Source of the DNA: Pseudemcibacter aquimaris
GTDB lineage: Bacteria > Pseudomonadota > Alphaproteobacteria > Sphingomonadales > Emcibacteraceae
Length of the DNA: 64,000 bases
Reading direction: 5' to 3'
Assembly (NCBI RefSeq): GCF_028869115.1
Contig: NZ_CP079800.1
Location: forward strand, 2,641,501-2,705,500
Part shown: in pieces, positions 21,674 through 38,594 of the stretch
How positions within the stretch are numbered: position 1 is the first letter of the stretch
Layout: each line of letters starts with the position of its first letter
Position numbers and translations under genes: made by a program
The notes under the pieces: model-generated
Seen by the model: only the letters and a program-made list of their open reading frames with translations
What the model was told of the DNA's origin: nothing
Database searches by the model: none

Positions 21674-21878
21674 ATATTTTTCTCCCTCTTCGCTCCCGAT
21701 CTCTCAGGAAATTTTTCTCTAATACCCCAACAATTTCAACAACTTAATAATAATTACAACATCATTTCTTCAATAAGAATAATGTTTTACATGTAATGTT
21801 TGTTTTATGTTTCTGGATACGATATATGTTTCGAGTAAACATGAAAAGAATTTAATTTTTAATAACTGGATTATAAAC

Positions 21879-23069
21879 ATGACAGACAAAAATTGGGATA
21901 ACATCGACCAGGCGACAATGGCCGTTTGGGCTGGTGAAGAAAAAACATTTTTGGAGGGCTGCGCACAAGTTCCGATCGTGAACAGTGTTTCATATAGCCA
22001 CGATGATGTTGATGAATGGTTTGAAGTTGCGACCGGTAAACGCGAAGGCCACATTTACAGCCGTAACACCAACCCGACCGTTGATGTTTTTGAAGAAAAA
22101 ATGCGCGTCCTTGAGGGCGCGGAAGCCGCGACAAGTTTTTCAACTGGAATGGCTGCGATCAGCAACGCCTTATTCACATTTTTATCACCAGGACAACGCG
22201 TAGTATCAACAAAAGATACGTATGGCGGCACCAGCGTTGTATTCTTAGAACATCTACCGCGTTTTGGTGTTGATGTTAGTCTTGTTGAAACAACCGACAT
22301 GGACGCGATCGAAGCAGAAGTTGATAAAGGCTGTGATCTACTTTATCTGGAAACACCAACAAACCCGACGATGAAGGTTCTTGATCTAAAACGTTTGATT
22401 GCCTACGGGAAAGAGAGAGGCGCGATTGTTATTGTTGATAACACATTTGCCACACCGATTAACCAAAACCCGCTTGCACTTGGTGCTGATCTTGTGGTGC
22501 ACAGTGCGACAAAATTCCTTGGTGGTCATTCTGATGCGATGGGCGGCATTCTTTGTGGTAAAGAAGACCTGATTAAAAAAGCATATTCTTTCCGTGAAAT
22601 TAATGGTGCATCACTTGACGCCAATTCAGCATATTTGCTTCTTCGTGGTCTTAAAACATTAAAACTACGCGTTAAACAGCAAAACGAAAATGCGCTTGCA
22701 CTTGCCAAATATCTTGAAGGTCACGATAAGGTGGAAAAAGTTTTCTATCCAGGTCTTGAAAATGATCCGGGTCATGAAATCGCAAAAGGTCAAATGCGTG
22801 GGTTTACAGGTATGCTTAGTTTCTCGCTTAAGGGCGGGTTTGATAGCGTTCGTAAGTTTCTGCCATCTGTTAAATATGCGCACCGCGCAGCGCACCTTGG
22901 TGGTGTTGAAACAATTCTTGGGCCACCCCGTACAGCAAGCCATGTTGAACTAACAGAAGAGCAACGCGCTGCACTCGGCATTCCGGAAAGTCTGATCCGT
23001 TGTTCAGTAGGCATCGAAGATATTGATGACATCATTGCCGATTTCGAACAAGCAATGAAGTCGCTTTAA
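21879..23069 (+). CDS. Cystathionine gamma-synthase / methionine gamma-lyase family PLP enzyme
   Basis: A 396-residue Cys/Met-metabolism enzyme starting MTDKNWDNIDQATMAVW. The ATG at 21879 fits the family start; an ATG at 21807 would add an unusual extension. PLP is held by K212 (HSATKFLGGHSDA), with YSRNTNPTVDVFE near the N-terminus, YLETPTNPTM, VDNTFATP and a C-terminal LIRCSVGIED carboxylate arginine. Family members make cystathionine, homocysteine or methanethiol, and sequence alone does not separate them. No SAM riboswitch is seen upstream. It stands alone and is followed by a good terminator. Confidence 0.88.
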   Translation: MTDKNWDNIDQATMAVWAGEEKTFLEGCAQVPIVNSVSYSHDDVDEWFEVATGKREGHIYSRNTNPTVDVFEEKMRVLEGAEAATSFSTGMAAISNALFTFLSPGQRVVSTKDTYGGTSVVFLEHLPRFGVDVSLVETTDMDAIEAEVDKGCDLLYLETPTNPTMKVLDLKRLIAYGKERGAIVIVDNTFATPINQNPLALGADLVVHSATKFLGGHSDAMGGILCGKEDLIKKAYSFREINGASLDANSAYLLLRGLKTLKLRVKQQNENALALAKYLEGHDKVEKVFYPGLENDPGHEIAKGQMRGFTGMLSFSLKGGFDSVRKFLPSVKYAHRAAHLGGVETILGPPRTASHVELTEEQRAALGIPESLIRCSVGIEDIDDIIADFEQAMKSL

Positions 23070-23091
23070 AAAGCGTTTAGACAAATAAAAA

Positions 23092-23126
23092 GGAGAGCGT
23101 GGCGTGGTTCGCGCTCTCCCGTTTTT
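23092..23126 (+). terminator. Rho-independent terminator after the trans-sulfuration gene
   Basis: GGAGAGCG pairs with CGCTCTCC (23112-23119) around a 12-base loop, followed by a run of five T. It lies 23 bp after the stop codon. Confidence 0.88.
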
Positions 23127-23474
23127 CAGACAATAACAGGCTAACCAACCACGTCCCTGTCTGAATAGCTTATTATACCATAAAATAAGCCATTTTTCAA
23201 TTTCGCCGCTTATGGTTTCCAATTCTCTTTTAAAATCAATAGCCCTGAATTAACCATGTTTTTCGGCGGCTGACGCAGAGTAAAAACGACTCCGATTTAT
23301 CTTAGGAAATTTAAGCTGAGTTTGCATCTAACATTGATCTCAGCATATTTTGCCGTTTCGGCATGTTCTGCATAGGCAATTATTGTTTATCTATAAATAC
23401 TTCCCAGCATTTTCCACATTTTCAAGTGGCATATTTCTTGCATTATTTTCCTGCAAACATATTGGGAAGAAAAA
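23127..23474. other. 348-bp intergenic region with sigma-54 promoter
   Basis: No gene seen. It carries a TGCCG-TTT-CGGCA inverted repeat (23351-23363) and a sigma-54 promoter (23427-23442), both upstream of the coiled-coil protein gene. The inverted repeat lies about 65 bp before the promoter, a plausible activator-site distance. Confidence 0.6.
23427..23442 (+). promoter_or_regulatory. Sigma-54 (-24/-12) promoter
   Basis: TGGCAT-N5-TTGCA, with exactly ten bases between the GG and GC doublets as sigma-54 requires. It lies 33 bp before the start of the gene at 23475. Confidence 0.65.
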
Positions 23475-23945
23475 ATGATCATTATACCAGATAAAACATA
23501 TCCAGCGAACGCCATTGGTGCAACGTCATTACAAGGCAACCAAACTTCAAATCAAGAAACGCAGGCTCACAATAACAGAGCTGCGCGCATTGTTGAAGAT
23601 AAGGTCGAAATATCATCCGAAGCGCTGGATGCATATGAAGCTAGCCTTAAAGCGCGAAATGAAGCACAGAATGCCTTAACCGAAAAAATCATGTCAAAAG
23701 GGTTTCTTGACTGGGCAGAAGAGGTAAATAGAGAAAAGCTAGAAGCAGAGGTTAGAGCACAAGTTCTTAGTTCAATGGGATATAGCGAAGAGGATTACGC
23801 AACATTAGAAGCCGAAGTCCAGCAACGCATCGAGCAAATCATTAAAGAAAAAATAGAAGAGAAAATAGAAGAAGAACTTGCCAAAAAACTGAAGGAGTCA
23901 AATCCTGAAAATGATCAGTTTGCGAATATCAGTTTTAGGAAATAA
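23475..23945 (+). CDS. Hypothetical coiled-coil protein (sigma-54 controlled)
   Basis: A 156-residue soluble protein with no signal peptide and no family I can name. The first 45 residues are polar and probably disordered. DKVEISSEALDAYEAS follows, a phrase often seen near the N-terminus of small flagellum-associated proteins. The C-terminal half is highly charged and Glu/Lys-rich (IIKEKIEEKIEEELAKKL), predicting a long helix or coiled coil. GGAAG precedes the ATG. The sigma-54 promoter upstream and the phrase above make a motility or envelope role possible, but this is a guess. Confidence 0.7.
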   Translation: MIIIPDKTYPANAIGATSLQGNQTSNQETQAHNNRAARIVEDKVEISSEALDAYEASLKARNEAQNALTEKIMSKGFLDWAEEVNREKLEAEVRAQVLSSMGYSEEDYATLEAEVQQRIEQIIKEKIEEKIEEELAKKLKESNPENDQFANISFRK

Positions 23946-24021
23946 TAATGCATACTATTGCGCGCGAAATTAATTAAGGTAATATGCATCCTTAAAGTAA
24001 ATTAAGACTACAGGCACTATT

Positions 24022-24507
24022 TTGACATTAACCGCACTCGATCCCACTGATCTTAAAATTCTATCTGTACTGCAGAACGAAGGCAGGATCAGCAAAACCG
24101 ATCTTGCGGAACGTGTGAACCTTTCCCCATCCCCATGTTGGGTACGTCTTCAACGGTTAGAAGATGAAGGATACATCACGAGCTATAGCGCCAATATCGT
24201 TCTTGATAAGCTTTTTTCATTTTCGACCGTGATGGTTGAAGTCAGCCTAAAAAGCCATACAAAGAATGATTTTATTCGTTTCGAAGAAGCAGTTCAATCA
24301 ATGGACCATGTGGTGGATTGTTACGCAACGGGCGGGGGCATTGATTACATCCTGCGCATCGTCGCAAAAGATATTGATCTATACCAAAAGCTAATTGATG
24401 AAATGCTGGACGCTGATATCGGAATTGATCGTTATTTTACCTATATCGTCACCAAAACCGTTAAATCATCAAATCAAATTAAAATAAACGCATTACTGGA
24501 TAATTAA
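24022..24507 (+). CDS. Lrp/AsnC-family regulator
   Basis: A 161-residue regulator with TTG start. The N-terminal helix-turn-helix (LKILSVLQNEGRISKTDLAERVNLSPSPCWVRLQRLE, residues about 9-45) is followed by a RAM effector domain (about 65-150) containing VDCYATGGGIDYILRIV. Such proteins sense amino acids and often control the adjacent catabolic gene. The adjacent convergent gene was a class III aminotransferase that is now only a 49-codon remnant, so the regulator may have lost its main target. Confidence 0.9.
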   Translation: MTLTALDPTDLKILSVLQNEGRISKTDLAERVNLSPSPCWVRLQRLEDEGYITSYSANIVLDKLFSFSTVMVEVSLKSHTKNDFIRFEEAVQSMDHVVDCYATGGGIDYILRIVAKDIDLYQKLIDEMLDADIGIDRYFTYIVTKTVKSSNQIKINALLDN

Positions 24508-25297: not shown

Positions 25298-26497
25298 CTA
25301 AACGCGTTCGATCACCATGGCGATGCCTTGGCCGACGCCGATGCACATTGTGCAGAGGGCGTATTTGCCGCCAGTGCGTTCAAGTTGATTGACCGCGGTT
25401 GTTACAAGGCGAACACCGCTCATACCCAGTGGGTGACCGAATGCGATTGCGCCGCCTTGCGGGTTAATGCGCGGATCATCATCAGCAATACCGAGTGTAC
25501 GTGTACAAGCAAGAACCTGTGCGGCGAATGCCTCGTTAAGCTCAAGAATATCCATGTCATCAAGGGATAAGCCAAGACGTGCCAGCAATTTTTGTGATGC
25601 TGGAACTGGGCCAATACCCATTGTACGCGGTGCAACACCAGCAACAGCAGAACCCAGAATACGGGCACGTGGCGTTAAACCGTGTTTGCTTGCGGCTTCT
25701 TCGGTGGCGATCAATGTCGCTGCGGCACCGTCGTTAATTCCAGATGCGTTACCGGCTGTGATTGTGCCCCCTTCAAAAATTGTGCGAAGGCTCGCCATTT
25801 TTTCAAGGTTTGATTGACGTGGATGCTCATCGCGGTCCACGATAATCGGATCTTTACGTCGTTGCGGTACCGTAACAGAACAAATTTCATCTGCTGTGTA
25901 ACCCGCTTCAATTGCGGCGGCTGCTTTATTCTGGCTCCAGAAAGAGAACTTGTCCTGATCTTCGCGGCTGATGTTATGTTCTTCCGCAAGATTTTCTGCC
26001 GTTTTTGGCATCACATCTGTGCCATACATCTTATCAAGTTTCTTATTGATAAAACGCCAGCCCATTGTCGTATCTTCTAACTTATGTGCGCGGCCATATG
26101 GCCCTTCTGATTTACCCATAACGAATGGGGCGCGTGACATGCTTTCCACGCCACCCGCAATCATCAGATCACCTTCACCGACCGCGATGGCGTTGGCGGC
26201 AATACCAATGGCATTAAGACCAGAACCACAAAGGCGGTTTACGGTTGTTGCAGCAACTTCCTGCGGTAGCCCTGCAAGAAGTGTTGCCATACGGCCAACG
26301 TTACGGTTGTCTTCGCCTGCCTGATTGGCACAGCCATAAATCGCATCATCAACCGCTGCCCAGTCAACGTCTTTATTTCTTTCCATTAGCGCCGTTAACG
26401 GAATTGCCGCAAGATCATCTGCACGTACAGGGGCAAGACCACCACCATAACGACCAACGGGTGTACGGATTGCATCACAAATAAAGACGTTTTTCAT
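25298..26497 (-). CDS. pcaF: 3-oxoadipyl-CoA thiolase (PcaF-like)
   Basis: A 399-residue thiolase that cleaves 3-oxoadipyl-CoA with CoA into succinyl-CoA and acetyl-CoA. The nucleophile cysteine lies in VNRLCGSGLNAIG (about residue 90), with the late GHPLGMSGVR histidine and CIGVGQG cysteine. Family-specific phrases FGxGANQAGEDNRNVGRMATLLAGLP-like text and LEDTTMGWRFINKKL match PcaF rather than acetoacetyl-CoA thiolases. It ends the operon begun by the aminomutase gene and lies with the matching CoA-transferase. No protocatechuate or catechol ring-cleavage gene is nearby, so its 3-oxoadipate probably comes from another source. Confidence 0.9.
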   Translation of the reverse strand: MKNVFICDAIRTPVGRYGGGLAPVRADDLAAIPLTALMERNKDVDWAAVDDAIYGCANQAGEDNRNVGRMATLLAGLPQEVAATTVNRLCGSGLNAIGIAANAIAVGEGDLMIAGGVESMSRAPFVMGKSEGPYGRAHKLEDTTMGWRFINKKLDKMYGTDVMPKTAENLAEEHNISREDQDKFSFWSQNKAAAAIEAGYTADEICSVTVPQRRKDPIIVDRDEHPRQSNLEKMASLRTIFEGGTITAGNASGINDGAAATLIATEEAASKHGLTPRARILGSAVAGVAPRTMGIGPVPASQKLLARLGLSLDDMDILELNEAFAAQVLACTRTLGIADDDPRINPQGGAIAFGHPLGMSGVRLVTTAVNQLERTGGKYALCTMCIGVGQGIAMVIERV

Positions 26498-26511
26498 TTT
26501 ACTTTTTACCT

Positions 26512-27819
26512 TTAAAACTGGTTTTTCATTTTATTGAAGCTGCGCTCGACGGCTTCTGCAAATTTGTCGATTTCCGCATTGGTCAGTGCTGTTGAAAGCA
26601 GACCAGAACATGTGTTCACCATGATGAAACCTTCATCAAACAGGTGATTGTTCAGTGTGCTGATCAGGGCACTTTCCTCTTTGGTAACAAATGCTTTACG
26701 GTATGTGTTTGGCACTTCCGGCTTCATGTGAATACGGAATACGGAACCACGGCCCGTTACACAACATGGAACGTCAGCGTTTTTAATCGCTTCACGAACA
26801 GACTGGCGTGCATATTCAGTTACACCGTTAAGACGGTCAACCGCTTCACGATCAAACAGTTCCATGGCAACACGGCCCGCTGTCATTGTAATCGGGTTTG
26901 CTGAAAATGTACCGGAATGCGGGAATAGTACATTATCCGCATGCGGGTTCATCACATCCATTACATCCGCACGACCAGCAAAGGCACCAACAGGGAAACC
27001 ACCACCGATCATTTTACCCATCGCAGTAAGGTCAGGCTTAATATTCGGATACCATTCCTGCGCACCGCCATAATTTGAACGGAAGGTAATAACCTCGTCA
27101 CAAACAAGTAGCGCTTCATTACGACGTGTCCAGTCGTAAATTGCCTGAACGAAATCTTCTTCAGCAGGTAAGAAACCAACACGGTGCGGCATCAAGTCAA
27201 GAAGAACACAAGCAATGTTGTCTGCTTCTTCGTCAAGGATTTTAATGGCGCGCTCTGGATCATTAAACGGAATAACCACAACGTCATCAAGGGCCGCTTG
27301 CGGTGTTCCGTGTGCAACAGGAACACTTGTCGGACGGTCTTCATCACCCCAGTTGGAAGGGTTTGCCGTTTGACTTACTTCCGCATAGTCATAAAGACCG
27401 TGGTATGCACCCTCAACCTTTGCAATTTTTGGACGGCCCGTAAAAGCACGTGATGCTTTAAGACATCCCATTACGGCCTCGGTTCCGGAGTTAACAAAAC
27501 GAACCTTTTCAAAACTATCTGAACGGTTAACCAGATGCTCAGCATAAAGAACCTCTGCTTCTGTACCAAGTGTGAATGCCGTACCTTTCGCAAGCTGTGC
27601 GCTTACTTCTTCAACGATTTTCGGGTGAGAATGACCGTGAATGTGCGATGCCATATTATTGGCAAAATCGATGCGGGTTACGCCTTCGATATCGGTTACG
27701 AAACAGCCTTCTGCATGGTCCACATATAATGGATGTGGTTTACGCAGGATTGTGTTACGGCTGCAACCACCAGGCATTACCTTTAGGCCGCGTTCATATA
27801 ATTCAGAGCTTTTTGACAT
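26512..27819 (-). CDS. Class III aminotransferase, HemL-like / beta-amino-acid type
   Basis: A 435-residue PLP enzyme. The PLP lysine is K269 (LTAMGKMIGGGFPVGAF) and the ring-contacting aspartate D241 (LLVCDEVITFR); SGTEAVMGCLKASRAFTGR binds the phosphate. The overall look is HemL-like, as in glutamate-1-semialdehyde aminomutase, but known beta-amino-acid transaminases (beta-phenylalanine aminotransferase) belong to the same clade. Between an aminomutase and a 3-oxoacid CoA-transferase, conversion of a beta-amino acid to a 3-oxo acid is the sensible role. Substrate is inferred. Strong AAGGA site. Confidence 0.85.
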   Translation of the reverse strand: MSKSSELYERGLKVMPGGCSRNTILRKPHPLYVDHAEGCFVTDIEGVTRIDFANNMASHIHGHSHPKIVEEVSAQLAKGTAFTLGTEAEVLYAEHLVNRSDSFEKVRFVNSGTEAVMGCLKASRAFTGRPKIAKVEGAYHGLYDYAEVSQTANPSNWGDEDRPTSVPVAHGTPQAALDDVVVIPFNDPERAIKILDEEADNIACVLLDLMPHRVGFLPAEEDFVQAIYDWTRRNEALLVCDEVITFRSNYGGAQEWYPNIKPDLTAMGKMIGGGFPVGAFAGRADVMDVMNPHADNVLFPHSGTFSANPITMTAGRVAMELFDREAVDRLNGVTEYARQSVREAIKNADVPCCVTGRGSVFRIHMKPEVPNTYRKAFVTKEESALISTLNNHLFDEGFIMVNTCSGLLSTALTNAEIDKFAEAVERSFNKMKNQF

Positions 27820-27831
27820 TATTTTTTCCTT

Positions 27832-28482
27832 TTAAGCCTTGATAAGCTTTGCACCTGTGCGTTCCTGCACATAATCAAAATCAACACCCGGAGCCAGTTC
27901 AACAAGTTTGAACCCTTCTGGTGTTACATCAATAACCGCAAGATCGGAATAGATGCGTTTTACAACGCCAACACCAGTAAGCGGGAATGTGCAATTTTCA
28001 ACCAATTTCGGATAACCTTTTTTGGTTACATGTTGGGTAATCACGTTGATTGTTTTTACGCCAGCAACAAGATCCATTGCGCCGCCCACAGCCGGGATCG
28101 CATCTGGATTACCAGTTGACCAGTTCGCAAGATCGCCATTTTCCGCAACCTGCATCGCGCCAAGCACACAAATATCAATGTGGCTGCCACGGATCATAGA
28201 AAAACTATCCGCATGGTGGAAATATGATGCACCCGGGATTGCTGTTACAAGCTTTTTACCAGCATTGATCAGTTCCGGATCCTCGTCACCTTCTGCTGGG
28301 GCATCGCCCATACCAAGAAGTCCATTTTCCGTATGATAAATTACTTCGCGGCCCTCAGGGATATAACGGACAACCTTTTCAGGAATACCGATACCGAGGT
28401 TTACATATGCACCATCAGGAATATCCTGCGCTGCGCGTTCCGCCATTTGTTCACGGTCCCAACCGATTACTTCTTCAGTCAT
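27832..28482 (-). CDS. pcaJ: 3-oxoadipate CoA-transferase subunit B
   Basis: A 216-residue beta subunit of a family I CoA-transferase. The catalytic glutamate lies in the HTENGLLGMGDAP segment (about residue 51), and GAYVNLGIGIP and VGGAMDLVAGVK are conserved. Closest in wording to PcaJ. It moves CoA from succinyl-CoA to 3-oxoadipate. Its ATG overlaps the stop of subunit A (ATGA), so the two are coupled and made in equal amounts. Confidence 0.88.
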   Translation of the reverse strand: MTEEVIGWDREQMAERAAQDIPDGAYVNLGIGIPEKVVRYIPEGREVIYHTENGLLGMGDAPAEGDEDPELINAGKKLVTAIPGASYFHHADSFSMIRGSHIDICVLGAMQVAENGDLANWSTGNPDAIPAVGGAMDLVAGVKTINVITQHVTKKGYPKLVENCTFPLTGVGVVKRIYSDLAVIDVTPEGFKLVELAPGVDFDYVQERTGAKLIKA

Positions 28483-29189
28483 GGGTAACTCTCCCCTGCT
28501 GCAACAAGTGCTGATTCATGAACAGGATCAGCAACAGTAACAATACGATTTACAAAAATACCTGGTGTTACAACCACTTCAGGATCAATTGCGCCTGCTT
28601 CAACATATTCTTTTGTTTGAACAATTGTTGTGCTTGCGGCCATTGCCATGATCGGTGCAAAATTACGGGCCGTTTTATTGTAAATCAGGTTGCCGTGACG
28701 GTCTGCCTTTAATGATTTGATCAGTGCGAAATCAGCCGTTAAGCCCATTTCCATCACATAATCACGACCATTGAAATTACGAACTTCTTTACCTTCGGCA
28801 AGTGGTGTACCCACGGATGTTGCCGTAAAGAATGCCGGAACACCTGCACCACCAGCACGGATACGCTCGGCGAGTGTGCCTTGTGGCACTAGCTCAAGTT
28901 CAATTTTACCTGCTGTATAAAGTTCAGGAAAAACGAATGAGTTCGCAGATTTCGGGAAAGAGCAGATCATCTTTGCAACGCGCTTATTTTCGATAAGCGC
29001 TGCAAGGCCAACGTGACCGGAACCTGTGTTATTATTAACCACAGTAAGGTCTTTTGCGCCCTGATCGATGAGAGCATGAATAAGTTCGATAGGGCTGCCT
29101 GCCTCACCGAACCCGCCGATCATAACGGTGGCACCATCTTTGATGTCTGCCACCGCTTCATGAACGGAATCTATTTGTTTATTGATCAT
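28479..29189 (-). CDS. pcaI: 3-oxoadipate CoA-transferase subunit A
   Basis: A 236-residue alpha subunit with the CoA-binding motif GGFGEAGSP near residue 24, then VVNNNTGSGHVGLAAL, VPQGTLAERIRAGGAGVPAFFT and VTPGIFVNRIV, all matching PcaI. It pairs with the following gene. Of the 3-oxoacid CoA-transferase group, PcaIJ and the acetoacetate enzymes are close relatives, and PcaF next door favours 3-oxoadipate. Confidence 0.88.
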   Translation of the reverse strand: MINKQIDSVHEAVADIKDGATVMIGGFGEAGSPIELIHALIDQGAKDLTVVNNNTGSGHVGLAALIENKRVAKMICSFPKSANSFVFPELYTAGKIELELVPQGTLAERIRAGGAGVPAFFTATSVGTPLAEGKEVRNFNGRDYVMEMGLTADFALIKSLKADRHGNLIYNKTARNFAPIMAMAASTTIVQTKEYVEAGAIDPEVVVTPGIFVNRIVTVADPVHESALVAAGESYP

Positions 29190-29216
29190 AAACGATAGTC
29201 CTTATGATGAATAGGA

Positions 29217-30629
29217 TTAAGCTTTAATGCTGAATAGACCTGCTTCATCACTAATTACGCGATCTTTATAATCATCGAACCAGATCGCATCTGGGTTACG
29301 ACCAACAATCGCAACTTGACCTTTCTTCGGTGCATCTTCAGCAGAACGAAGAAGCTTGAAGATCACAACGCCGTTTTCAGCGTGCGGAACACCAGGGATA
29401 GGCTCGTTTGTTACTGCAACAACTTCTGTCTTACCGTAATAGTGAGTGATTGAAAGACGAGCATGCGCCTCAACACCAGAAAGACCACGTTGTGAAGTAT
29501 TAAGAATGTTCCATGCCTCTTCGATTGGAACGTTAAACGCTTTATGGCCAACAATGTCACGACCACAGAAGAAGTAATGGTTTTCAACTTTCGCACGGCG
29601 AAGTTCACGTTGCATGATACGCTTCGCATCAGGGTCATCACTGATGTTTTTGATGATTGGTGCTTGGTTATCAAGTGTTACGAAACCACGTTTGCCGAAT
29701 TCTTTAACGGCACGGCCTGTGCTCTCAACCCACTTAAGACCACCGCCTTCAACAGGGATGTAGTTGCCGTCTTCGTCTTTATCTAGGAACTCATCAGGAT
29801 GGTTGAAGTGGATCATGAAACGTAGACGTGTTTCAGGATAAGCTTCATGGAAATCATCCATCATTTGGAAGAAGCTGTCATCAAAACGGTCTGGGAAGAA
29901 CGCAAGTTCCTTAGTACCAAGACGGATGCTTTCGATACCTGCTTCTGAAAGTGCTGCCCACCATGATGCGATACCTTTGTTCGCAAGAACCATTGGGTCA
30001 CCACCAGACATAAGAATTTCACGTAGACGCTCACGACCTGTTTCAGGGTGACGGCCACCGTTTTCATCAACGATTTTGTTGTGCTCTTTGATGTACTCAA
30101 CAAGCTCAGGAATTTGTGCAAGACCTTTAGCTTGGATTGAACCATCTTCGCGAACGATTTCTTTTTTCGCGATTAGTTCTTCACGGTAACAGAAACGACA
30201 GTGTGCTGAACATGTACCCGCAACATAAATAAGACCTAATTCATATTTATGGATAAGACCTTCAACTGGGCTGTAGCTCATTTGCTTACCAGGATCTTCT
30301 GAACCGGCAAGGTCAAATGTTTCAGCAGGTGATGCTTTAACAAGTGTACGTACTGATGGGCTTACGCGTGCACGCTCGAAATAATGACGTGTCATTTTAA
30401 CTGGCATACGTGCTTCGATGTCACGGTTTGTGCCTTTAAGTGCTGCGATTTCAGCAAGCTCTTCTTCAGTATAGAAATCCTTCATATCATCATCGACTTT
30501 ACCGTCCATGAATTTTTGAAGACCTGTTACGATTTGACGGTCATATTTAGCATTCTGAACTTTTGACAGAAAATCTGCTTCTTTCTCAGTTGGGATATGC
30601 TTCTTTCTAACTTTTGCTTGTACGTTCAT
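29217..30629 (-). CDS. Radical SAM 2,3-aminomutase, KamA family (acidic-substrate type suspected)
   Basis: A 470-residue protein. The start at 30629 follows GGAGG; an in-frame GTG at 30644 overlaps that site. The [4Fe-4S] motif is C140-x3-C144-x2-C147 (CSAHCRFCYRE), with R149 expected to hold the substrate carboxylate. SGGDP (208-212), HFNHPDEF and LDNQAPI are family landmarks. K400 (YYGKTEVV) is the likely PLP lysine. By eye the two aspartates that bind the side-chain amine in clostridial lysine 2,3-aminomutase are absent: the first region reads FCGRDIVG with R357, the second SITHYYGK. That favours an acidic side chain. First gene of the operon with the CoA-transferase, aminotransferase and thiolase genes. 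Confidence 0.88.
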   Translation of the reverse strand: MNVQAKVRKKHIPTEKEADFLSKVQNAKYDRQIVTGLQKFMDGKVDDDMKDFYTEEELAEIAALKGTNRDIEARMPVKMTRHYFERARVSPSVRTLVKASPAETFDLAGSEDPGKQMSYSPVEGLIHKYELGLIYVAGTCSAHCRFCYREELIAKKEIVREDGSIQAKGLAQIPELVEYIKEHNKIVDENGGRHPETGRERLREILMSGGDPMVLANKGIASWWAALSEAGIESIRLGTKELAFFPDRFDDSFFQMMDDFHEAYPETRLRFMIHFNHPDEFLDKDEDGNYIPVEGGGLKWVESTGRAVKEFGKRGFVTLDNQAPIIKNISDDPDAKRIMQRELRRAKVENHYFFCGRDIVGHKAFNVPIEEAWNILNTSQRGLSGVEAHARLSITHYYGKTEVVAVTNEPIPGVPHAENGVVIFKLLRSAEDAPKKGQVAIVGRNPDAIWFDDYKDRVISDEAGLFSIKA

Positions 30630-30799: not shown

Positions 30800-31690
30800 A
30801 TGCTCGGCCAAAGAAGATTAATACCAAGTACCAGTATGCTGATGGCATTTGAGGCATCCGCAAGAAACGGCAGCTTTACCCTTGCTGCACAGGAATTAAA
30901 CCTGACACAAGGTGCAATTAGCAGACAAGTAAACGCGCTTGAAGAACAGCTGGGTGTATCCCTTTTCAAAAGGGTCAAAAAATCAATTATCCTGACGGAT
31001 GTTGGAAAAATTTATGCCGATGAAATCGCTGGAGCCCTTAGAACGATTCGTAATGCGTCTCTTAACGCAGTGAGTGACACCAAGGGCCAGACATTAAACG
31101 TCGCTATATTACCCACGTTCGGCATGCGTTGGTTGATGCCGAAATTTCCTGACTTTCTTTCAAAGAACCCACAAATCACAGTGAATTTCACCAGTAAATT
31201 ATCACCGTTTGATTTTAACAGCGAAGATCTTCATTGCGCCATTCACTTTGGCCATCCCGATTGGGCCGGTACGGAAGGCACCTTTTTAATGAGCGAACAA
31301 GCCGTCCCCGTTGCTGCGCCATCATTCATTGGCGACCATACCGTTCGTGATGCAGAAGAAATACTGGACATGCCGCTTTTACATATTGAAACAAGGCCAG
31401 CCGCATGGGACGAATGGTTTAAGCAAAATGACCTTAAACCACCAAAAGACAAAGGCATGGTGCTTGAACAATTTTCAATGGTTACACAAGCCGCCGTCGC
31501 GGGTCTTGGTGTCGCGCTCCTTCCTCATTTTTTGATCAATACGGAACTTGACCGCGGGGAGCTTGAGATTTTGATGGATAATCCGCTTGAAAACAGCGCT
31601 GGGTATTACCTGATCACCCCAAGCAGCCATTCCAACTATGCGCCGGTTAAGGCGCTAAAAAGTTGGTTGTTGGAACAGACTGAGACCTAA
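30800..31690 (+). CDS. LysR-type regulator (GcvA-like), divergent from the aminomutase operon
   Basis: A 296-residue LysR protein with the GcvA-subfamily opening STSMLMAFEASARNGSFTLA, helix-turn-helix to about residue 65 (LTQGAISRQVNALEEQLG) and an effector domain (LNVAILPTFGMRWLMPKF). The divergent position, 170 bp from the aminomutase start, makes it the likely regulator of the 25.3-30.6 kb operon, probably sensing the amino acid substrate. Its stop overlaps that of the RTX gene by 4 bp. Confidence 0.9.
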   Translation: MLGQRRLIPSTSMLMAFEASARNGSFTLAAQELNLTQGAISRQVNALEEQLGVSLFKRVKKSIILTDVGKIYADEIAGALRTIRNASLNAVSDTKGQTLNVAILPTFGMRWLMPKFPDFLSKNPQITVNFTSKLSPFDFNSEDLHCAIHFGHPDWAGTEGTFLMSEQAVPVAAPSFIGDHTVRDAEEILDMPLLHIETRPAAWDEWFKQNDLKPPKDKGMVLEQFSMVTQAAVAGLGVALLPHFLINTELDRGELEILMDNPLENSAGYYLITPSSHSNYAPVKALKSWLLEQTET

Positions 31691-32616
31691 GTAATTAATT
31701 GAGGGATATCTTCATCCACGAGAAGTGTTACATCGGCGAATGTATAAACGTTTGCACCGGCCTCTTCACCGACATAAAACCAACCTTCACCGACAGAGAA
31801 CACTTCATCACCGCTGTCGCCTTCGATGATTAATTCATTATAACCATCGGTAATGTCGATGACGTCATCAACGGTTAGTTCCACAGAGATTTCATCTTCG
31901 AAGTTACCAAGGTCAATGACCTCAATATCAACGGCATCGATAAGGGATAAATCAAGAAAGAAGGGGATAAAGGGGTCTTCGGCAAAGAATTGAAGCGTGT
32001 CAAATCCACTACCGCCATCAAAATAATCTTCCAGATCGGAAAATTCATCTTCGTAAACTTCGAAGGTGTCATCGCCACCTTCACCGTATAGATAATCAAT
32101 ATCCAATCCGCCAGACATTAAATCATTGCCGGATCCACCATAAAGATCATCATCACCGGAACCACCATATATCCAATCGTTACCACTGCCGCCATCAAGA
32201 TGATCATCGCCCGAGCCACCATAAATGTCATCAAAACCGCTTTCGCCGTAAATATCATCGAAACCATGATGACCATGGATCAAGTCATCACCGCCGCCAC
32301 CATATATGATGTCATCGCCAGAACCAGTATCGATAATATCGTCACCCCCATAAGAAAATACCACTAGATCCCGGCCGGTATATTCTTGTTCCAAGATATG
32401 ATCGGCATCATCATATGCTTCGTATGTATCGCTGGACGCATAAAAATAGCTGCTTGGGCCATAATCTTCATAAACATATTCTGTTACGATAACGGTATCT
32501 GCGCCATAGTGATAATGGCCGGAATTACATCCGCTTATTAATATTGCTGAGATACCAAGACCGAAGAGTTTCGGTTTCTTAAAGAATTTCACATTTTCTA
32601 AAGCACGTTTTTTCAT
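31687..32616 (-). CDS. RTX-repeat protein with N-terminal lipobox
   Basis: A 309-residue acidic protein. Residues 17-30 form a lipoprotein signal (GLGISAILISGC, lipid-bearing C30). About residues 88-188 hold roughly ten RTX nonapeptides (GGSGDDHLDG, GGSGNDWIYG and similar) that fold into a calcium-binding beta-roll. The C-terminal 90 residues (VIDLGNFEDE, TVDDVIDITDG, VYTFADVTLLVDED) resemble the type I secretion target region of large RTX proteins. The secretion genes lie immediately upstream. A lipobox and a type I signal together are contradictory, since type I substrates bypass the periplasm. No pore-forming domain or acyltransferase gene is seen, so a toxin is unlikely. Confidence 0.85.
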   Translation of the reverse strand: MKKRALENVKFFKKPKLFGLGISAILISGCNSGHYHYGADTVIVTEYVYEDYGPSSYFYASSDTYEAYDDADHILEQEYTGRDLVVFSYGGDDIIDTGSGDDIIYGGGGDDLIHGHHGFDDIYGESGFDDIYGGSGDDHLDGGSGNDWIYGGSGDDDLYGGSGNDLMSGGLDIDYLYGEGGDDTFEVYEDEFSDLEDYFDGGSGFDTLQFFAEDPFIPFFLDLSLIDAVDIEVIDLGNFEDEISVELTVDDVIDITDGYNELIIEGDSGDEVFSVGEGWFYVGEEAGANVYTFADVTLLVDEDIPQLIT

Positions 32617-32733
32617 ACTTTACTCCACACCACAGGTTGACCCCTCACCGCGTGCGTGAAAATAAAGTTACATGATTATTGATGAACGGTTGCTGAATAT
32701 GCCCTTCAGGAAACAGTCAGGTACCGGTCAGAA

Positions 32734-34017
32734 TTAACGCTCTCTAAATGCATTTTCCTGCAATTTAAGAACCGGACTCATCAGATAGCGCATAATCGAC
32801 TTTTTACCATTTAGGATATCAACTTCTGCGACCATACCAGGTAAGATTGGCAAGTTTCCTTCGTCTGATGGCAGGCTGTTTTCCTGTGTACGTACTTGAA
32901 TGACATAAACATATTGTTCCTGATCATTCAGAATCGCATCAGCACTGATGTTTTCCACATTCCCTTCAAGTGCGCCGTAACGGGCAAAATCATATGCCGT
33001 TAATTTAACACGTGCATCCTGCCCCGGACGTAAAAATGCAATATCCTGCGGCAATACTTCTGCCTCAACCAATAGCGTGTCATCAAGTGGCACCAATTCA
33101 ACTATCGGCATACCGCTATCAACAACGCCGCCGATGGTTGTGACGAGCACCTGATTAATCACACCGTCTGTCGGTGCAATAACGTCCGTTCTGTTTACAC
33201 GGTCCGATAACGCCGGAAGGCTATCAACAAGTTGGTTACGGCTTGTTTCCGCCTCATTCAGTTCCGTTAGTACACCAGCACGGAATTTTTGACGTTCGGC
33301 TTCGATTTGAAGATTTGTTTCTTCAACGGATTTCTTGGCTTTCTCAATCCCAAGCTCTGCAATTCTGCTATCACCGGCCGCTTCCGTTTTGCGCTGTTCC
33401 GCACGGATCAGTTCCATTTGCGGTTCAATACCACGCTCAACCAGCGGCTTTAACAGTTCAACTTCTGCGTCCGCTAACTCACTAGCTGATCTGGCACTGA
33501 CGAGACTTACTTCTGCTTCGATTTGTTCCTGTTCAATTTGACGAAGACGTGCAGTAAGACTGTTAATCGATGCATCAAATTCCGCCTTACGGGCATTAAA
33601 TAGATTGATTTCACGACTGACCAGATATTCATGCTCATTTAAAAGCGTTTCATCAAATACCGGTTCTTCGAAATTACTTTCTGCACGAAGACGGGTGATC
33701 ATCGCCTCTAATGATAGATACTCTTCTTCATTACGATTAAATTCAGCATCAAACTGGGTACGGTCAAGCTTAACGAGAATATCGCCTTCTTTTACCTCGT
33801 CCCCTTGGCGCACAAGAATTTCTTTTACGATACCGCCTTCAAGGTTTTGGATTACCTGTATTTGCTTACTTGGCACAATACGGCCCGATGCACGTGTTAC
33901 TTCGTCCAGTTCAGACAGGCTTGCCCATAAAATAAACAATGTGAAAAAGCCAAAAATACAAAGCAATAATGCATTGGCCGCCAGTTTTGGTGTTAATTCA
34001 GGAATATTTTTTAACAT
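32734..34017 (-). CDS. Type I secretion membrane-fusion protein (HlyD/LapC family)
   Basis: A 427-residue protein with one N-terminal TM segment (about 14-34), then a lipoyl half (VIQNLEGGIVKEILVRQGDEVKEG, in part), a long coiled coil (about 95-270), the second lipoyl half (VIAPTDGVINQVLVTTIGG) and a beta-barrel domain ending DILNGKKSIMRYLMSP. It links the ABC transporter to the outer-membrane channel. AAGGGG precedes the ATG, 6 bp after the ABC gene, and the RTX gene follows 117 bp downstream. Confidence 0.93.
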   Translation of the reverse strand: MLKNIPELTPKLAANALLLCIFGFFTLFILWASLSELDEVTRASGRIVPSKQIQVIQNLEGGIVKEILVRQGDEVKEGDILVKLDRTQFDAEFNRNEEEYLSLEAMITRLRAESNFEEPVFDETLLNEHEYLVSREINLFNARKAEFDASINSLTARLRQIEQEQIEAEVSLVSARSASELADAEVELLKPLVERGIEPQMELIRAEQRKTEAAGDSRIAELGIEKAKKSVEETNLQIEAERQKFRAGVLTELNEAETSRNQLVDSLPALSDRVNRTDVIAPTDGVINQVLVTTIGGVVDSGMPIVELVPLDDTLLVEAEVLPQDIAFLRPGQDARVKLTAYDFARYGALEGNVENISADAILNDQEQYVYVIQVRTQENSLPSDEGNLPILPGMVAEVDILNGKKSIMRYLMSPVLKLQENAFRER

Positions 34018-34022
34018 TTGGG

Positions 34023-35777
34023 TTACCCCTTCTTCATCATATCAGGTGCGTTTTTCGCGCCCTTAGGGGTTAGCATTTTAATGACGTCATCTTTTGGCCC
34101 GTTGGCAACAACCTTGCCCTGTTCCACAACAATGATACGGTCCACAAGTTCAAGAAGCGACGGACGGTGCGTTACAATAAGTAATGTGCTGTCTTTTAAT
34201 TCTTCTTTTAATCTATAGATAAGCTTATGCTCGGATGCCGTATCCATAGAACTGGTCGGTTCATCCATCATGATCATCGGCGCCTTACGAACGAGCGCAC
34301 GACAAATGGCAAGCGCTTGTTTTTGGCCGCCCGATAATCCTTCACCACGGTCCCGAAGGTGAAGATCATAACCATTTGGAATACTGCCAAGGAAATCCTG
34401 AACACCACTGATTTCAGCAGCTTTTAGAATATCTTCATCGCTCACTTCCGGATGGCCCATTGTGATATTTTCTTTAACCGTTCCGGAAAATAGGAATACA
34501 TCCTGTAAAACCATGGCCATATTTTTACGAACGTCATCCGGCACGATCTGACGTATGTCTGTATCATCAATCATGATGGCACCGTCATCCGGTTCATAAA
34601 GCCCCGCAGCAAGTCTTAAAACTGTGCTTTTACCAGAACCAATTTTACCAAGAATACCGACCTTCTCACCCGGCTCCACTTTAAAGGATAAATTATCAAG
34701 CACACGGGTCGGCTGATCAGGGTATTTAAAGTTCACATTTTTAAATTCAATTTTACCCTTCATTTTATCACGGCGGATGAAATCACGACCAGTGACATCT
34801 TCGTTTGGTTCTGCCATCAAATTATCAAGTGCACCATAAGCCGTTTTCGCATGGTTATAACGCGTAAGCAGGTTCGCAAGCTGACCAAGCGGCGCAAGAC
34901 AGCGACCGGAAATAATCACACAGGCAATCAACGCACCCATGGAAAGCTCCCCTTCCATGATCATAAAGAAACCAACCGCAACAATACCGATTTGTGATAT
35001 TTGCTGTGCGGATGCTGCGCTATTAATGGCAACTTGACTGAACATACGTGATTTAACACCCACGTTTGAATGCTGGTCCACCGCCTTTTCCCAGCGGTCA
35101 TGGAAAAGTTTATCAGACCCAAGACTTTTTAATGTTTCAAGCCCCGACACCATTTCAACAAGTGTGCTTTGTTTACTATGACCTTGCTGCATTCCTTCTT
35201 TTGAAAAGCGGCTAAGGAATGGTTGAATGAATACACCAACAAAAAGTACGAACGGCACCGCAAGTGCCGGCACCCAAGCAACCGGACCACCAATCATTGC
35301 AATAACACCAATGAACAACACAATAAACGGAATATCCACCACTGTCGCAATTGATGCGGACGTACAAAAATCACGAAGACTTTCAAATTCACGAACCGTG
35401 TTCACAAGACCGCCCGTCGATCCTTTTTGTGACGCCAGTTTTAATTTCATGATACGGTCGAAAATGCGCTTCGCAACCGTAAGGTCCACCTTTTGACCTG
35501 CGCTATCAATGAAATAGGCACGTAAGAATTTCAAAAGAAAATCAAACCCGATCAGAATGATCATACCGATACAAAGTGCCACCAGACTTTCAATAGCATT
35601 GTTCGGAATAACACGGTCATAAACCGTCATGATAAAAACGGAACTACCTAATGAAAAAATATTAATCATTACCGCAGCAAGAATAATCTGGCCATAGGTC
35701 CACCAGTTCTGATGAAACGCACCCCAGAACCAATGTTCCTTATCCAAAATAGCTGATTGTGGACTAAACTCGCTCAT
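34023..35777 (-). CDS. Type I secretion ABC transporter (LapB/HlyB family)
   Basis: A 584-residue half-transporter: six-helix membrane domain (about residues 30-315), then the ATPase with Walker A GKIGSGKST, signature LSGGQKQALA, Walker B MIMMDEPTSSMD and switch histidine VTHRPS. It lacks the roughly 130-residue N-terminal C39-like domain found in HlyB/LapB, so substrate recognition must lie elsewhere. It exports the RTX protein from the cytoplasm. The start overlaps the stop of the outer-membrane gene by 1 bp (TAATG). Confidence 0.93.
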   Translation of the reverse strand: MSEFSPQSAILDKEHWFWGAFHQNWWTYGQIILAAVMINIFSLGSSVFIMTVYDRVIPNNAIESLVALCIGMIILIGFDFLLKFLRAYFIDSAGQKVDLTVAKRIFDRIMKLKLASQKGSTGGLVNTVREFESLRDFCTSASIATVVDIPFIVLFIGVIAMIGGPVAWVPALAVPFVLFVGVFIQPFLSRFSKEGMQQGHSKQSTLVEMVSGLETLKSLGSDKLFHDRWEKAVDQHSNVGVKSRMFSQVAINSAASAQQISQIGIVAVGFFMIMEGELSMGALIACVIISGRCLAPLGQLANLLTRYNHAKTAYGALDNLMAEPNEDVTGRDFIRRDKMKGKIEFKNVNFKYPDQPTRVLDNLSFKVEPGEKVGILGKIGSGKSTVLRLAAGLYEPDDGAIMIDDTDIRQIVPDDVRKNMAMVLQDVFLFSGTVKENITMGHPEVSDEDILKAAEISGVQDFLGSIPNGYDLHLRDRGEGLSGGQKQALAICRALVRKAPMIMMDEPTSSMDTASEHKLIYRLKEELKDSTLLIVTHRPSLLELVDRIIVVEQGKVVANGPKDDVIKMLTPKGAKNAPDMMKKG

Positions 35778-37126
35778 TACTCGCCTCTCTGTAATATAAT
35801 ATTCAGTGCCGGAAGCAATGTACCCATACTATCAAGCAGCCTGTATTTTGACAAATCATGCTCGATCATGCCGCTTAAATGTTGTTCACGGGCATTGTGA
35901 TGTTCTTTTTCCGCCTCTAACAATGAAAACAGACTGCCGCCAGTAACCTCGAATTGTTCTCTTGTTTGATCACGGTTAATGCCGCTTGCCTGCATTGCTT
36001 TTTCAAGCGAAACAACCTGTCTTTGCTGACTTTGCATACTTTGGAAAGAAACTTTAATACCGCGGTTTACTTCGCGACCAATTTGATCTTCCGCATGACG
36101 TGATCTTTCATAATTCTTTTGTGATCTGGCAATGCGCGCTGTATTGGCACCACCAGTATAAAGATCATAATTCAAAATCAACCGACCCGATACGTCATAA
36201 TCCGGCGTCCAGCGTTCCACATCATATTTCGTCGCGGCGAGTTCCAATGACACATATGGAAGTCTTTCTTTCTTAACCGCATTGACGTCTTCCTTGGATG
36301 CCATCGTTCTTGAAGATGCCATCGTAAGAAGCGGACTATTCATAAAACCCATTTCAAGAGCTTCATTTTCCGTCGCAGGAAGGTTTAAGGCAAATTCCGG
36401 ACGGTCCAAATTGGCCGGGGAAAAATTATAAACTTCTTCGTAATGGCTAGTGGCTTCTTCCAAGTCCATATCAGCACGCGATGCCTGCGTTTCAGCAAGG
36501 GCAAGACGCGATTCCATTAATGTAACGTCCTGGTTGGCACCACGACCACTTTCAAAACGCTGATTAACCATATCAAGTATTTCACGGTGACGCGCCACAT
36601 TCTGCTGATGAAAATCTTTACGCATACGTTGGAACAGAACCTGATAATGCGCCTCTACCGCAGCAAGTGCCACTGCCGATGCTTCTAATGAATATTCTTC
36701 GTGTGCCGCTGTGAATGCATGACGGGCACTGGAAATACGGCTAAAAGTGCTGCCCCCATCATATAATAATTGCCTACCGACGAGCGCAACATTCGCCGCA
36801 GTATCCCGAAGGCTACGTTGGGTTATGTTATCAAAACGATCTTCAAAATTATCAAAAATCCTGTGACGGCCCGACACATCAAGACCAATTGTTGGGTATA
36901 ATGCAGAACGAGCTTCGTCCTCGCGAAATTTCTGTTCATCACGTACGGCGAGTGCCGCAGACGTACGTGGATGCTCGCTTACAGCAAGTTGAATATTTTC
37001 TTTAAATGTTTGTGAATATGCAGGTACGCCAACAAAATTACTACTTTCCTGCGCCTTCACCGCGATTGGTGCTGATAATGCCATGCTTAACGCAAGAACA
37101 CCAATTCCCCAATTTATCTTTGTCAT
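35777..37126 (-). CDS. Type I secretion outer-membrane channel (TolC family)
   Basis: A 449-residue protein starting MTKINWGIGVLALSMALSAPIAVKAQ, a Sec signal peptide; a TTG at 37144 is an alternative start. The TolC pattern of paired long helices is visible (RDEQKFREDEARSALYPTIG; ARSQKNYERSRHAEDQIG), as in LapE/AggA. It forms the trimeric tunnel completing the secretion machine and is first in the operon. It might also serve the RND pump at 11-15 kb, which has no channel gene of its own. Confidence 0.9.
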   Translation of the reverse strand: MTKINWGIGVLALSMALSAPIAVKAQESSNFVGVPAYSQTFKENIQLAVSEHPRTSAALAVRDEQKFREDEARSALYPTIGLDVSGRHRIFDNFEDRFDNITQRSLRDTAANVALVGRQLLYDGGSTFSRISSARHAFTAAHEEYSLEASAVALAAVEAHYQVLFQRMRKDFHQQNVARHREILDMVNQRFESGRGANQDVTLMESRLALAETQASRADMDLEEATSHYEEVYNFSPANLDRPEFALNLPATENEALEMGFMNSPLLTMASSRTMASKEDVNAVKKERLPYVSLELAATKYDVERWTPDYDVSGRLILNYDLYTGGANTARIARSQKNYERSRHAEDQIGREVNRGIKVSFQSMQSQQRQVVSLEKAMQASGINRDQTREQFEVTGGSLFSLLEAEKEHHNAREQHLSGMIEHDLSKYRLLDSMGTLLPALNIILQRGE

Positions 37127-37187
37127 ATTTTTATCTTTAATCAATGATTCTCTACCGCGTAACTATATTGAAGAACGCATATTAATC

Positions 37188-37237: not shown

Positions 37238-37888
37238 TTAAATTACGGCATCTGGCTGGTTTTCAGGGATCGCTTTTTGAAATGCTTCTAACGCCAGACA
37301 GTTTTCATTAATTCGTAAAATATTCGCGTATGGCGATACATCACATTTGAAACGGTTCGCGTTATAAACTTGTGGCACCAGAAAACAATCAGCGAAACCA
37401 GGTTTATCACCATGGCAGAAATCACCTGTTTCCGGCTCACGTTCCAGTTTCTTTTCCAGTGCTGTGAATTCTTGTTTAACCCAATGATGATACCACATGG
37501 TGACTTCATCATCACTGTGATTTAAAGGATCACGCAAATAATTAGTAACACGTAAGTTATTCAATGGATGAATTTCACACGCAATCGCATAAGCAATAGA
37601 TTTTACCCTGATTTGATCATCAATATTGTCAGGTAATAACGGATTATCGGCGCTTAAATGATCAAGATATTCAAGAATACACAAAGATTGCGTGATCATT
37701 TTATCACCGACCTCAAGTGCGGGAACCAATCCTTGCGGATTCTTCGCTAAAAACTCTTCCGATTTATGTTCACCTTTCGCAAGGGCATAATTCTTCTGTA
37801 CATAATCGATTTTTTTTAAATTGAGCGCAATACGTGCGCGGTAAGCCGCAGAACTACGCCAAAAACCATGTAAAACGATATTAGACAA
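37238..37888 (-). CDS. Zeta-class GST, maleylpyruvate / maleylacetoacetate isomerase
   Basis: A 216-residue protein with TTG start behind GGAG, overlapping the hydrolase gene by 8 bp. The zeta-GST motif RSSAAYRARIALN (SSAxYR binds glutathione) and NPQGLVPALEVGD are present, and the C-terminal domain has YAIACEIHPLNNLRV. It isomerises the cis ring-opening product to the fumaryl form, from either gentisate or homogentisate. The neighbouring hydrolase favours fumarylpyruvate, hence gentisate, but no ring dioxygenase is in the window. Confidence 0.87.
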   Translation of the reverse strand: MSNIVLHGFWRSSAAYRARIALNLKKIDYVQKNYALAKGEHKSEEFLAKNPQGLVPALEVGDKMITQSLCILEYLDHLSADNPLLPDNIDDQIRVKSIAYAIACEIHPLNNLRVTNYLRDPLNHSDDEVTMWYHHWVKQEFTALEKKLEREPETGDFCHGDKPGFADCFLVPQVYNANRFKCDVSPYANILRINENCLALEAFQKAIPENQPDAVI

Positions 37889-38567
37889 CTTTTATCTCCA
37901 ATTCAGAAAGGCCATCAACGCCAACTTTAATTTCGTCACCTTTAATAACAGGACCAACACCTTCGGGTGTGCCTGTGTATATTAAGTCACCCGGCTTCAA
38001 TGTAAATAGCTCGGATAAATTTGCTATGACCTCAGCAACTGACCAAATCATTTTGTTTGTGTTGCTATCTTGCCTTGTTTCACCATTAACCGTTAACCAG
38101 ATACGCGCATCATCGATATGACCGTTTTCAGAAACAGGATATATTTCCGAACAAGGCGCAGAATGATCAAACCCTTTTGCCGTATCCCAAGGACGTCCTT
38201 TCTTCTTTGATGCTGCCTGCAGATCGCGTCTTGTAAAATCGATACCAACTGCATATCCGTATACATAATCAAGTGCTTCATCAACGCTTACATTTTTTCC
38301 TACTTTACCGATGGCGATTACAAGCTCTGCTTCATAATGCAGATTTTCTGTTTCTGGTGGATATGGAAAGTCAGAACCATTTTTTAAAATAGCGTCTGCC
38401 GGTTTTGTAAAATAAAATGGTGCTTCACGTGTTGGGTCACCACCCATTTCAAGTGCGTGATCAGCATAATTTCGGCCAACACAATATATTCTTCGTACCG
38501 GATAAAGATCATCACTGTTATGAATATTTAACGTGGATCTTTCACAAGGTTCAACGACAAATGCCAT
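37881..38567 (-). CDS. FAH-family hydrolase (fumarylpyruvate hydrolase-like)
   Basis: A 228-residue FAH-fold hydrolase. The metal-binding EAELVIAIGKVGKNV glutamates, YAVGIDFTRRDLQ and the active-site region KGFDHSAP and GDLIYTGTPEGVGPV are clear. Its size and opening (RRIYCVGRNYADHA) match fumarylpyruvate hydrolases rather than the 420-residue fumarylacetoacetase. It would give fumarate and pyruvate. Strong GGGGGT site. Confidence 0.88.
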   Translation of the reverse strand: MAFVVEPCERSTLNIHNSDDLYPVRRIYCVGRNYADHALEMGGDPTREAPFYFTKPADAILKNGSDFPYPPETENLHYEAELVIAIGKVGKNVSVDEALDYVYGYAVGIDFTRRDLQAASKKKGRPWDTAKGFDHSAPCSEIYPVSENGHIDDARIWLTVNGETRQDSNTNKMIWSVAEVIANLSELFTLKPGDLIYTGTPEGVGPVIKGDEIKVGVDGLSELEIKVV

Positions 38568-38594
38568 TATGGCACCCCCTTTATAATTTTGAAT

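Follow-up and report, generated by a model that had tools for sequence, protein, structure and literature searches.

We analysed a 64,000-nt window of the Pseudemcibacter aquimaris genome (GCF_028869115.1, NZ_CP079800.1, positions 2,641,501-2,705,500; coordinates below are window positions) that contains a minus-strand operon encoding a divergent radical S-adenosylmethionine (SAM) aminomutase (AM), the CoA-transferase subunits PcaI and PcaJ, a class III aminotransferase (AT) and a PcaF-like thiolase. Judged by sequence and gene context, these genes quite likely specify the later steps of a lysine-degradation pathway that proceeds via beta-aminoadipate and 3-oxoadipate. Such a carbon-conserving lysine pathway, with an alpha-aminoadipate 2,3-aminomutase and a natural beta-aminoadipate intermediate, probably occurs in up to six phyla; it would feed lysine carbon into the beta-ketoadipate pathway, with a C4 acid among its products. 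The five-gene operon is real: its open reading frames (ORFs) lie head to tail in the order AM, PcaI, PcaJ, AT and thiolase, with 27 bp between AM and PcaI, a 4 bp overlap of PcaI and PcaJ, and gaps of 12 bp (PcaJ-AT) and 14 bp (AT-thiolase). It is more than a chance arrangement, because loci with AM relatives share these neighbours. An initial annotation of this DNA had proposed a single transcription unit, which these five tightly packed ORFs bear out, but its gene order has to be corrected, as the aminotransferase precedes the thiolase. It had also noted an absence of ring-cleavage genes nearby, which holds (none lies near the operon, and the operon itself has no dioxygenase), but an intradiol dioxygenase pair is present elsewhere in the genome.

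In the proposed pathway, lysine would first be converted to L-alpha-aminoadipate. The host would use saccharopine enzymes and a piperideine-6-carboxylate/aminoadipate-semialdehyde dehydrogenase (AASADH) for this, with genes located away from the operon, whereas certain other genomes encode AASADH and a lysine-dehydrogenase-like protein (LysDH) near AM. AM would then form beta-aminoadipate by moving the amino group of alpha-aminoadipate (C2 to C3), with basic residues in place of lysine-binding aspartates holding the distal carboxylate, and AT would convert beta-aminoadipate to 3-oxoadipate. PcaIJ would form 3-oxoadipyl-CoA from 3-oxoadipate and succinyl-CoA, and PcaF would cleave it to succinyl-CoA and acetyl-CoA, so that alpha-aminoadipate (C6) would yield succinate (C4) and acetyl-CoA (C2) with no CO2 lost. 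The AM and AT steps are those that we infer, together with the AM substrate, the reaction direction, the stereochemistry and the flux in the host, whereas the PcaIJ and PcaF steps follow what is known of their families.

The initial annotation had called AM a radical SAM 2,3-aminomutase, and this identification survives via its fold and motifs, although no NCBIfam cut-off is reached. Against six KamA-type models AM scores 65-84 bits (cut-offs 199-650): 84 bits for the KamA subfamily TIGR00238 (cut-off 199), 83 bits for glutamate 2,3-aminomutase TIGR04368 (cut-off 650; the second-best of the six) and 67 bits for lysine 2,3-aminomutase (KamA/AblA) TIGR03820 (cut-off 525). No Pfam model matched at E 0.001, and the sole PDB sequence match at that threshold was lysine 2,3-aminomutase (2A5H), relative to which AM carries insertions. 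Because AM lies far below the KamA-type cut-offs and has no Pfam match, its identity as an aminomutase rests on fold and motifs. An AlphaFold2 model built from 44 sequences (predicted local distance difference test 87, predicted template-modelling score 0.88) retrieved two chains of 2A5H as its top two Foldseek matches (E 5.6e-17 and 1.0e-16), and the fold alignment spans 404 columns with template-modelling (TM) scores of 0.57/0.65, 20% identity and a large root-mean-square deviation (7.5). By this model, AM is an aminomutase with the lysine 2,3-aminomutase fold.

The active-site residues point to the type of substrate. Residue equivalences were taken from a MAFFT alignment with KamA-type proteins, and place R154 at KamA Arg134, R362 at Asp293 (also from a HMMER alignment to 2A5H, which is weak there), S398 at Asp330 and K405 at K337, with R396 two residues before S398. 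In KamA we take Asp293 and Asp330 to bind the lysine side chain, Arg134 the substrate carboxylate and K337 to be the pyridoxal phosphate (PLP) lysine. The CxxxCxxC cluster motif (C145/C149/C152) is found in 82/82 family members, R154, R362, S398 and K405 are invariant in the same 82 (81 different), and residue 396 is Arg in 78/82 and Lys in 4/82. AM therefore has the features of the KamA-like radical SAM superfamily, namely the fold of 2A5H, the cluster motif, the carboxylate Arg and the PLP Lys. Since basic residues stand where KamA has acids, the site would suit a substrate with a distal carboxylate, either glutamate or aminoadipate. Lysine (or arginine) was considered as the substrate and is unlikely, as Arg and Ser take the place of the lysine-binding Asp pair and a further basic residue lies nearby; this speaks against the lysine- or arginine-only enzyme that would have contradicted the initial annotation. 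We propose that AM is an alpha-aminoadipate 2,3-aminomutase, which would be a new enzyme activity.

Within 385 genomes of the host's class, 119 match AM at E 0.001. Apart from the host, a single genome reaches 70% identity or more, so close relatives are rare in the class; four further matches lie at 42-45% and the remainder at 39% or less over the matched stretch. On plasmids, 104 records match and one does so at 60% identity or more; an AM relative on one plasmid record is annotated 'hypothetical protein'. Among viral contigs, 28 stretches fit a search pattern and none encodes an AM relative. Two other groups were also seen. In a longer aminomutase clade (loci L003-L006, 37-45% identity), both members that were aligned, L003 and L005, have Arg in place of Asp293, and a class I aminotransferase, recognised by eye, adjoins the aminomutase in L004 and also in L006, where it is cut off. 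In another KamA-like clade (L011-L015), CFRW follows the cluster motif in 5/5, and the two aligned members (L011, L015) again have Arg where KamA has Asp293.

The remaining operon genes fit the downstream half of this scheme. PcaI scores 355 bits against TIGR02429 (cut-off 128.5), a model that also covers ScoA and so does not separate the types; in identity, which was compared for subunit A only, it is closer to a Loktanella copy that lies beside pcaF (66%) than to the host's other, Sco-type, copy (46%). PcaJ scores 300.5 bits against TIGR02428 (cut-off 243.55), and we propose that PcaIJ is a 3-oxoadipate:succinyl-CoA transferase. The thiolase passes the PcaF equivalog TIGR02430 (670 bits, cut-off 597) and falls far under the cut-offs of the PhaA (287 of 740 bits) and BktB (357 of 725 bits) models, in accord with its initial assignment as PcaF-like; its PDB relatives are headed by 8gqh, followed by the beta-ketoadipyl-CoA thiolase 6pca, and two further host thiolases are 47% and 39% identical to it. 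AT was rightly described as a HemL-like class III aminotransferase, matching PF00202 and scoring 316 bits against the HemL model TIGR00713, below its cut-off of 527. Its closest solved structures are 6k8h and ForI (6ssd), followed by HemL proteins and the beta-transaminases 2yku and 4ao9, and we propose that it acts as a beta-aminoadipate aminotransferase. Relatives of the transferase also occur on plasmid pTM2 of Tistrella mobilis (L156), where PcaI and PcaJ homologues (72% and 70% identical to those of the window) lie near an AASADH-like gene (61%), a DUF1338 gene and a GcvA-like regulator; this stretch gave no aminomutase match, and the HglS query from L096 missed its DUF1338 gene.

A scan of species genomes recovered 457 AM relatives, of which the best 80 (67-90% identity) were used for locus counts, with neighbours identified by tblastn; the ferredoxin and LysDH queries came from two of these loci, and flanks are short in many. 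The 80 loci are labelled Pseudomonadota, Bacteroidota, Planctomycetota and Chloroflexota, plus one metagenome-assembled genome (MAG) each for Actinomycetota and Gemmatimonadota; many carriers are MAGs and some are perhaps mis-binned, as a Blastopirellula MAG sits among Rhodobacterales in the AM tree. Neighbours of AM include AT at 54 loci, PcaI at 42, PcaJ at 38, ferredoxin at 20 and PcaF at 16. Where at least 3 kb is available downstream of AM (n=60), 48 loci have AT or PcaI plus PcaJ, which is the steady co-occurrence that the initial annotation had called for. The distances of AM, AT and PcaI are correlated (r 0.60-0.67, permutation maxima 0.17-0.32; n 53, 43, 35; shared species history uncorrected). 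Partners are not always the same proteins: in L087 a different class III aminotransferase replaces AT, and in L069, with the order AM-ferredoxin-AT-AASADH-PcaI-PcaJ-PcaF, identity to the window's proteins is no more than 59% for PcaI and 61% for PcaF, in keeping with independent recruitment of one function.

The link to lysine is provided by AASADH, found near AM at 10/80 loci (8 on the AM strand), and by LysDH-like genes at 7/80 (5 on the AM strand); one or both, which would make alpha-aminoadipate from lysine, occur at 13/80. By our estimate for few-Mb genomes with 1-3 copies each, chance would place AASADH within 8 kb at ~0.3-0.5 of 80 loci. Examples are a Woeseiaceae MAG (L078), with an Lrp gene on the opposite strand followed by LysDH-AASADH-AM-ferredoxin-PcaI-PcaJ-AT; Sphingorhabdus (L053), with LysDH, AASADH, AM and AT; and Mesorhizobium sophorae (L096), with Lrp, LysDH, HglS, AASADH, AM, ferredoxin and AT. 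HglS was near AM at one or more of the 80 loci, a lower bound because a single query, taken from L096, was used. When mapped on the AM tree, the lysine-gene label requires 6 changes, 2 of them forced by starred branches, and is clustered (0/500 shuffles as low); the label covers neither of its states at 30 short-flank loci, which were omitted from it, the 38 'none' loci include the window, and on this 'quick' tree L053 and L078 lie on long branches. The linkage of AM with lysine genes probably arose several times, and may also be compatible with one or two origins. The route from aminoadipate to 3-oxoadipate put forward in the initial annotation is thus supported by context and residues, with its substrate still a prediction, and its connection to lysine breakdown is strengthened by these 13 loci, which were invisible to that reading of a single sequence.

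The enzymes that make alpha-aminoadipate could be named with differing certainty. Scans covered the AASADH of the host and five from the set of ten linked to AM, and 6/6 pass NF050084, the L-piperidine-6-carboxylate dehydrogenase equivalog (776-811 bits, cut-off 730); PDB relatives of one AASADH include Pcd and antiquitin. The two LysDH-like proteins scanned have saccharopine dehydrogenase domains and no NCBIfam match at E 1e-15, and the closest PDB entry of one is 3ABI, presumably a lysine dehydrogenase; this name is less sure than that of AASADH. In the host, AASADH (794 bits against NF050084) lies away from the operon beside an Lrp gene, and a tandem of both saccharopine enzymes is located ~18-20 kb left of the window (2q99, E 3.9e-74; 1e5l, E 6.2e-43), so alpha-aminoadipate can be made in the host; a search of its genome for HglS found none. 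The host also has a second CoA-transferase pair, termed Sco-type. Elsewhere in its genome (C1 ~1216145-1220501; L164 8146-12502), the intradiol dioxygenase pair lies together with an IclR-like gene, a BKACE gene and a class III aminotransferase; by eye the pair is of the protocatechuate type, and the ORF list of this stretch contains no pcaIJF-like ORF.

Genome content was compared in 50 of the 80 carriers, many of them MAGs of unstated completeness. AASADH (E 1e-80) is present in 31/50 AM genomes as compared to 87/385 genomes of the class, host included, a rough comparison given these MAGs and the carriers from other classes among the 50. A gene resembling that of glutaryl-CoA dehydrogenase (GcdH-like, E 1e-90) was found in 36/50, which disfavours the notion that AM simply replaces the glutaryl-CoA route; the idea that AM carriers lack this classical outlet is not supported by the same count.

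Several observations weigh against the pathway that we propose. The basic residues at 362 and 396 would also suit glutamate, and 67/80 loci have neither AASADH nor LysDH in the available flank. At 12/60 loci with sufficient downstream sequence, including six Colwellia loci, AM is accompanied neither by AT nor by the PcaI-PcaJ pair. Among carriers, 19/50 have no AASADH at E 1e-80, including the isolate genome of Sneathiella chungangensis, the GcdH-like gene is widespread, and AASADH without a GcdH-like gene occurs in only 6 of 31 AASADH-positive genomes (L053, L060, L065, L101, L106 and, from Cucumibacter marinus DSM 18995, L108). The position of HglS between LysDH and AASADH in Mesorhizobium sophorae indicates that two fates of aminoadipate may coexist. 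In the host the lysine genes do not adjoin the operon, and a glutaryl-CoA-dehydrogenase-like gene is present, which could give aminoadipate the classical exit; we assume this name from a motif, and no NCBIfam model at E 1e-60 gave it. PcaIJF alone would also fit protocatechuate breakdown, the host has the intradiol dioxygenase pair (PF00775, C1:1216271-1217334), and some plasmids carry close relatives of PcaI with no adjoining AM.

These points can be assembled into three other explanations. AM could be a glutamate 2,3-aminomutase, its product beta-glutamate being either converted via 3-oxoglutarate to malonyl-CoA and acetyl-CoA or kept as an osmolyte; R362, the basic residue at 396 and S398 would suit this, the glutamate model ranks second among the six, and several carriers have marine names (e.g. 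Zongyanglinia marina, Cucumibacter marinus). We nevertheless think it unlikely, as the score remains far under that model's cut-off, the operon thiolase is of the PcaF type, genes for making aminoadipate from lysine are found repeatedly near AM (no search was made for glutamate genes), and cells can already convert glutamate directly to 2-oxoglutarate. It is more improbable still that PcaIJF serve a protocatechuate pathway in the host, with AM and AT unrelated and aminoadipate exiting via 2-oxoadipate and glutaryl-CoA. This would account for the dioxygenase pair, the glutaryl-CoA-dehydrogenase-like gene and the low identity of the other two host thiolases to that of the operon, but not readily for an AM-PcaI-PcaJ-AT neighbourhood that is kept across the labelled phyla, for the correlated AM, AT and PcaI distances (again uncorrected for shared species history) or for AASADH near AM at loci both with and without PcaIJ. 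Least credible, and very improbable, is a lysine 2,3-aminomutase whose beta-lysine would be transaminated and cleaved to 4-aminobutyryl-CoA and acetyl-CoA: AM does share the fold of 2A5H, and a CoA-transferase and thiolase could handle a 3-oxo acid of the beta-lysine type, but the presumed lysine-binding Asp293 and Asp330 are Arg and Ser in all family members, a charge reversal, and the lysine model yields a score far below its cut-off. The beta-aminoadipate pathway remains the reading that we prefer.

The operon is flanked by two regulators (Table 1), of which the divergent LysR-family gene likely controls it; a LysR gene is found at 42/80 related loci, always on the opposite strand, and upstream of AM in 37. 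AM could start at a GTG (30644) or an ATG (30626). Past the operon, a methionine-gamma-lyase-like gene (PRK08249 cut-off passed) and the Lrp gene occupy 21807-24507; a Chloroflexi MAG (L107) has members of both families upstream of its aminomutase, and L033 and L054 have a member of the lyase family there. On the other side, a glycine/aspartate-rich RTX-like repeat protein beside HlyD-, ABC- and TolC-like genes (31687-37144) resembles, by eye, a type I secretion set, and genes for a glutathione S-transferase resembling maleylacetoacetate isomerase, a fumarylacetoacetate (FAA) hydrolase and a flavin reductase (37238-39512) may function in aromatic breakdown.

Table 1. Genes of the operon and its flanking regulators in the 64,000-nt window.
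Feature	Position	Strand	Basis or remark
AM, divergent KamA-like radical SAM/PLP protein, 475 aa	29217..30644	-	ORF, fold, motifs
PcaI-like CoA-transferase subunit A	28479..29189	-	TIGR02429
PcaJ-like CoA-transferase subunit B	27832..28482	-	TIGR02428
AT, HemL-like class III aminotransferase	26512..27819	-	PF00202
PcaF-like 3-oxoadipyl-CoA thiolase	25298..26497	-	TIGR02430
LysR-family (GcvA-like) regulator, divergent, 155 bp from AM	30800..31690	+	265 bits, below GcvA cut-off 288
Lrp/AsnC-family regulator past operon 3' end	24022..24507	+	Link to operon unproven

Among the papers listed by searches of open-access literature, none describes a route via beta-aminoadipate; most subscription papers and all bioRxiv preprints lie outside this scope. 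A search on the lysine-binding aspartates listed no paper. Lysine breakdown has been charted extensively: one study states that MetaCyc lists eleven lysine degradation pathways, almost all ending at glutaryl-CoA, and finds that in Phaeobacter inhibens 13C-lysine labels aminoadipate, carbon exits by glutaryl-CoA, M+4 makes up just 5% of succinyl-CoA, and six strongly M+5- or M+6-labelled compounds lack identification (PMC5653290). A lysine-to-adipate route is marked in silico in PMC8706239, and the passages covered of PMC9854754 and PMC9309667 contain nothing on the proposed route. If the pathway is real, it would be a new lysine-degradation route in which no carbon is lost, and would give a function to a radical SAM family. 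Lysine use would then be read differently from genomes, an enzyme source for beta-aminoadipate would be at hand, and cells growing on lysine would, thanks to the C4 product, depend less on the glyoxylate or ethylmalonyl-CoA routes.

The proposed system shares elements with several known ones. AM resembles KamA/AblA (2A5H) in its fold, cluster motif, carboxylate-binding Arg and PLP lysine (roles as we presume them), but differs in its low identity, its insertions, the replacement of Asp293/Asp330 by Arg/Ser and a score far under the equivalog cut-off. With glutamate 2,3-aminomutase, which presumably has Lys332 and Asn369 at these two positions, AM would share a basic residue at the Asp293 position, but it scores far below the glutamate model and has a predicted substrate one carbon longer. 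Like the beta-ketoadipate pathway, the operon has a PcaIJ-type CoA-transferase and a thiolase above the PcaF cut-off, whereas its proposed feed is a beta-amino acid instead of an aromatic ring, and it has no dioxygenase gene. Aerobic beta-lysine degradation, which proceeds by the acetyl-beta-lysine route, similarly combines a 2,3-aminomutase, transamination, CoA activation and thiolysis, but its substrate is lysine itself and its intermediate is acetylated. The first half of the proposed route, to alpha-aminoadipate, is identical to that of known aminoadipate lysine degradation; from there the known routes lead to 2-oxoadipate and on to glutaryl-CoA or, by HglS, to 2-hydroxyglutarate, whereas the proposed route would use a C2-to-C3 amino shift in place of C2 transamination, and would end, with no decarboxylation, at succinate and acetyl-CoA.

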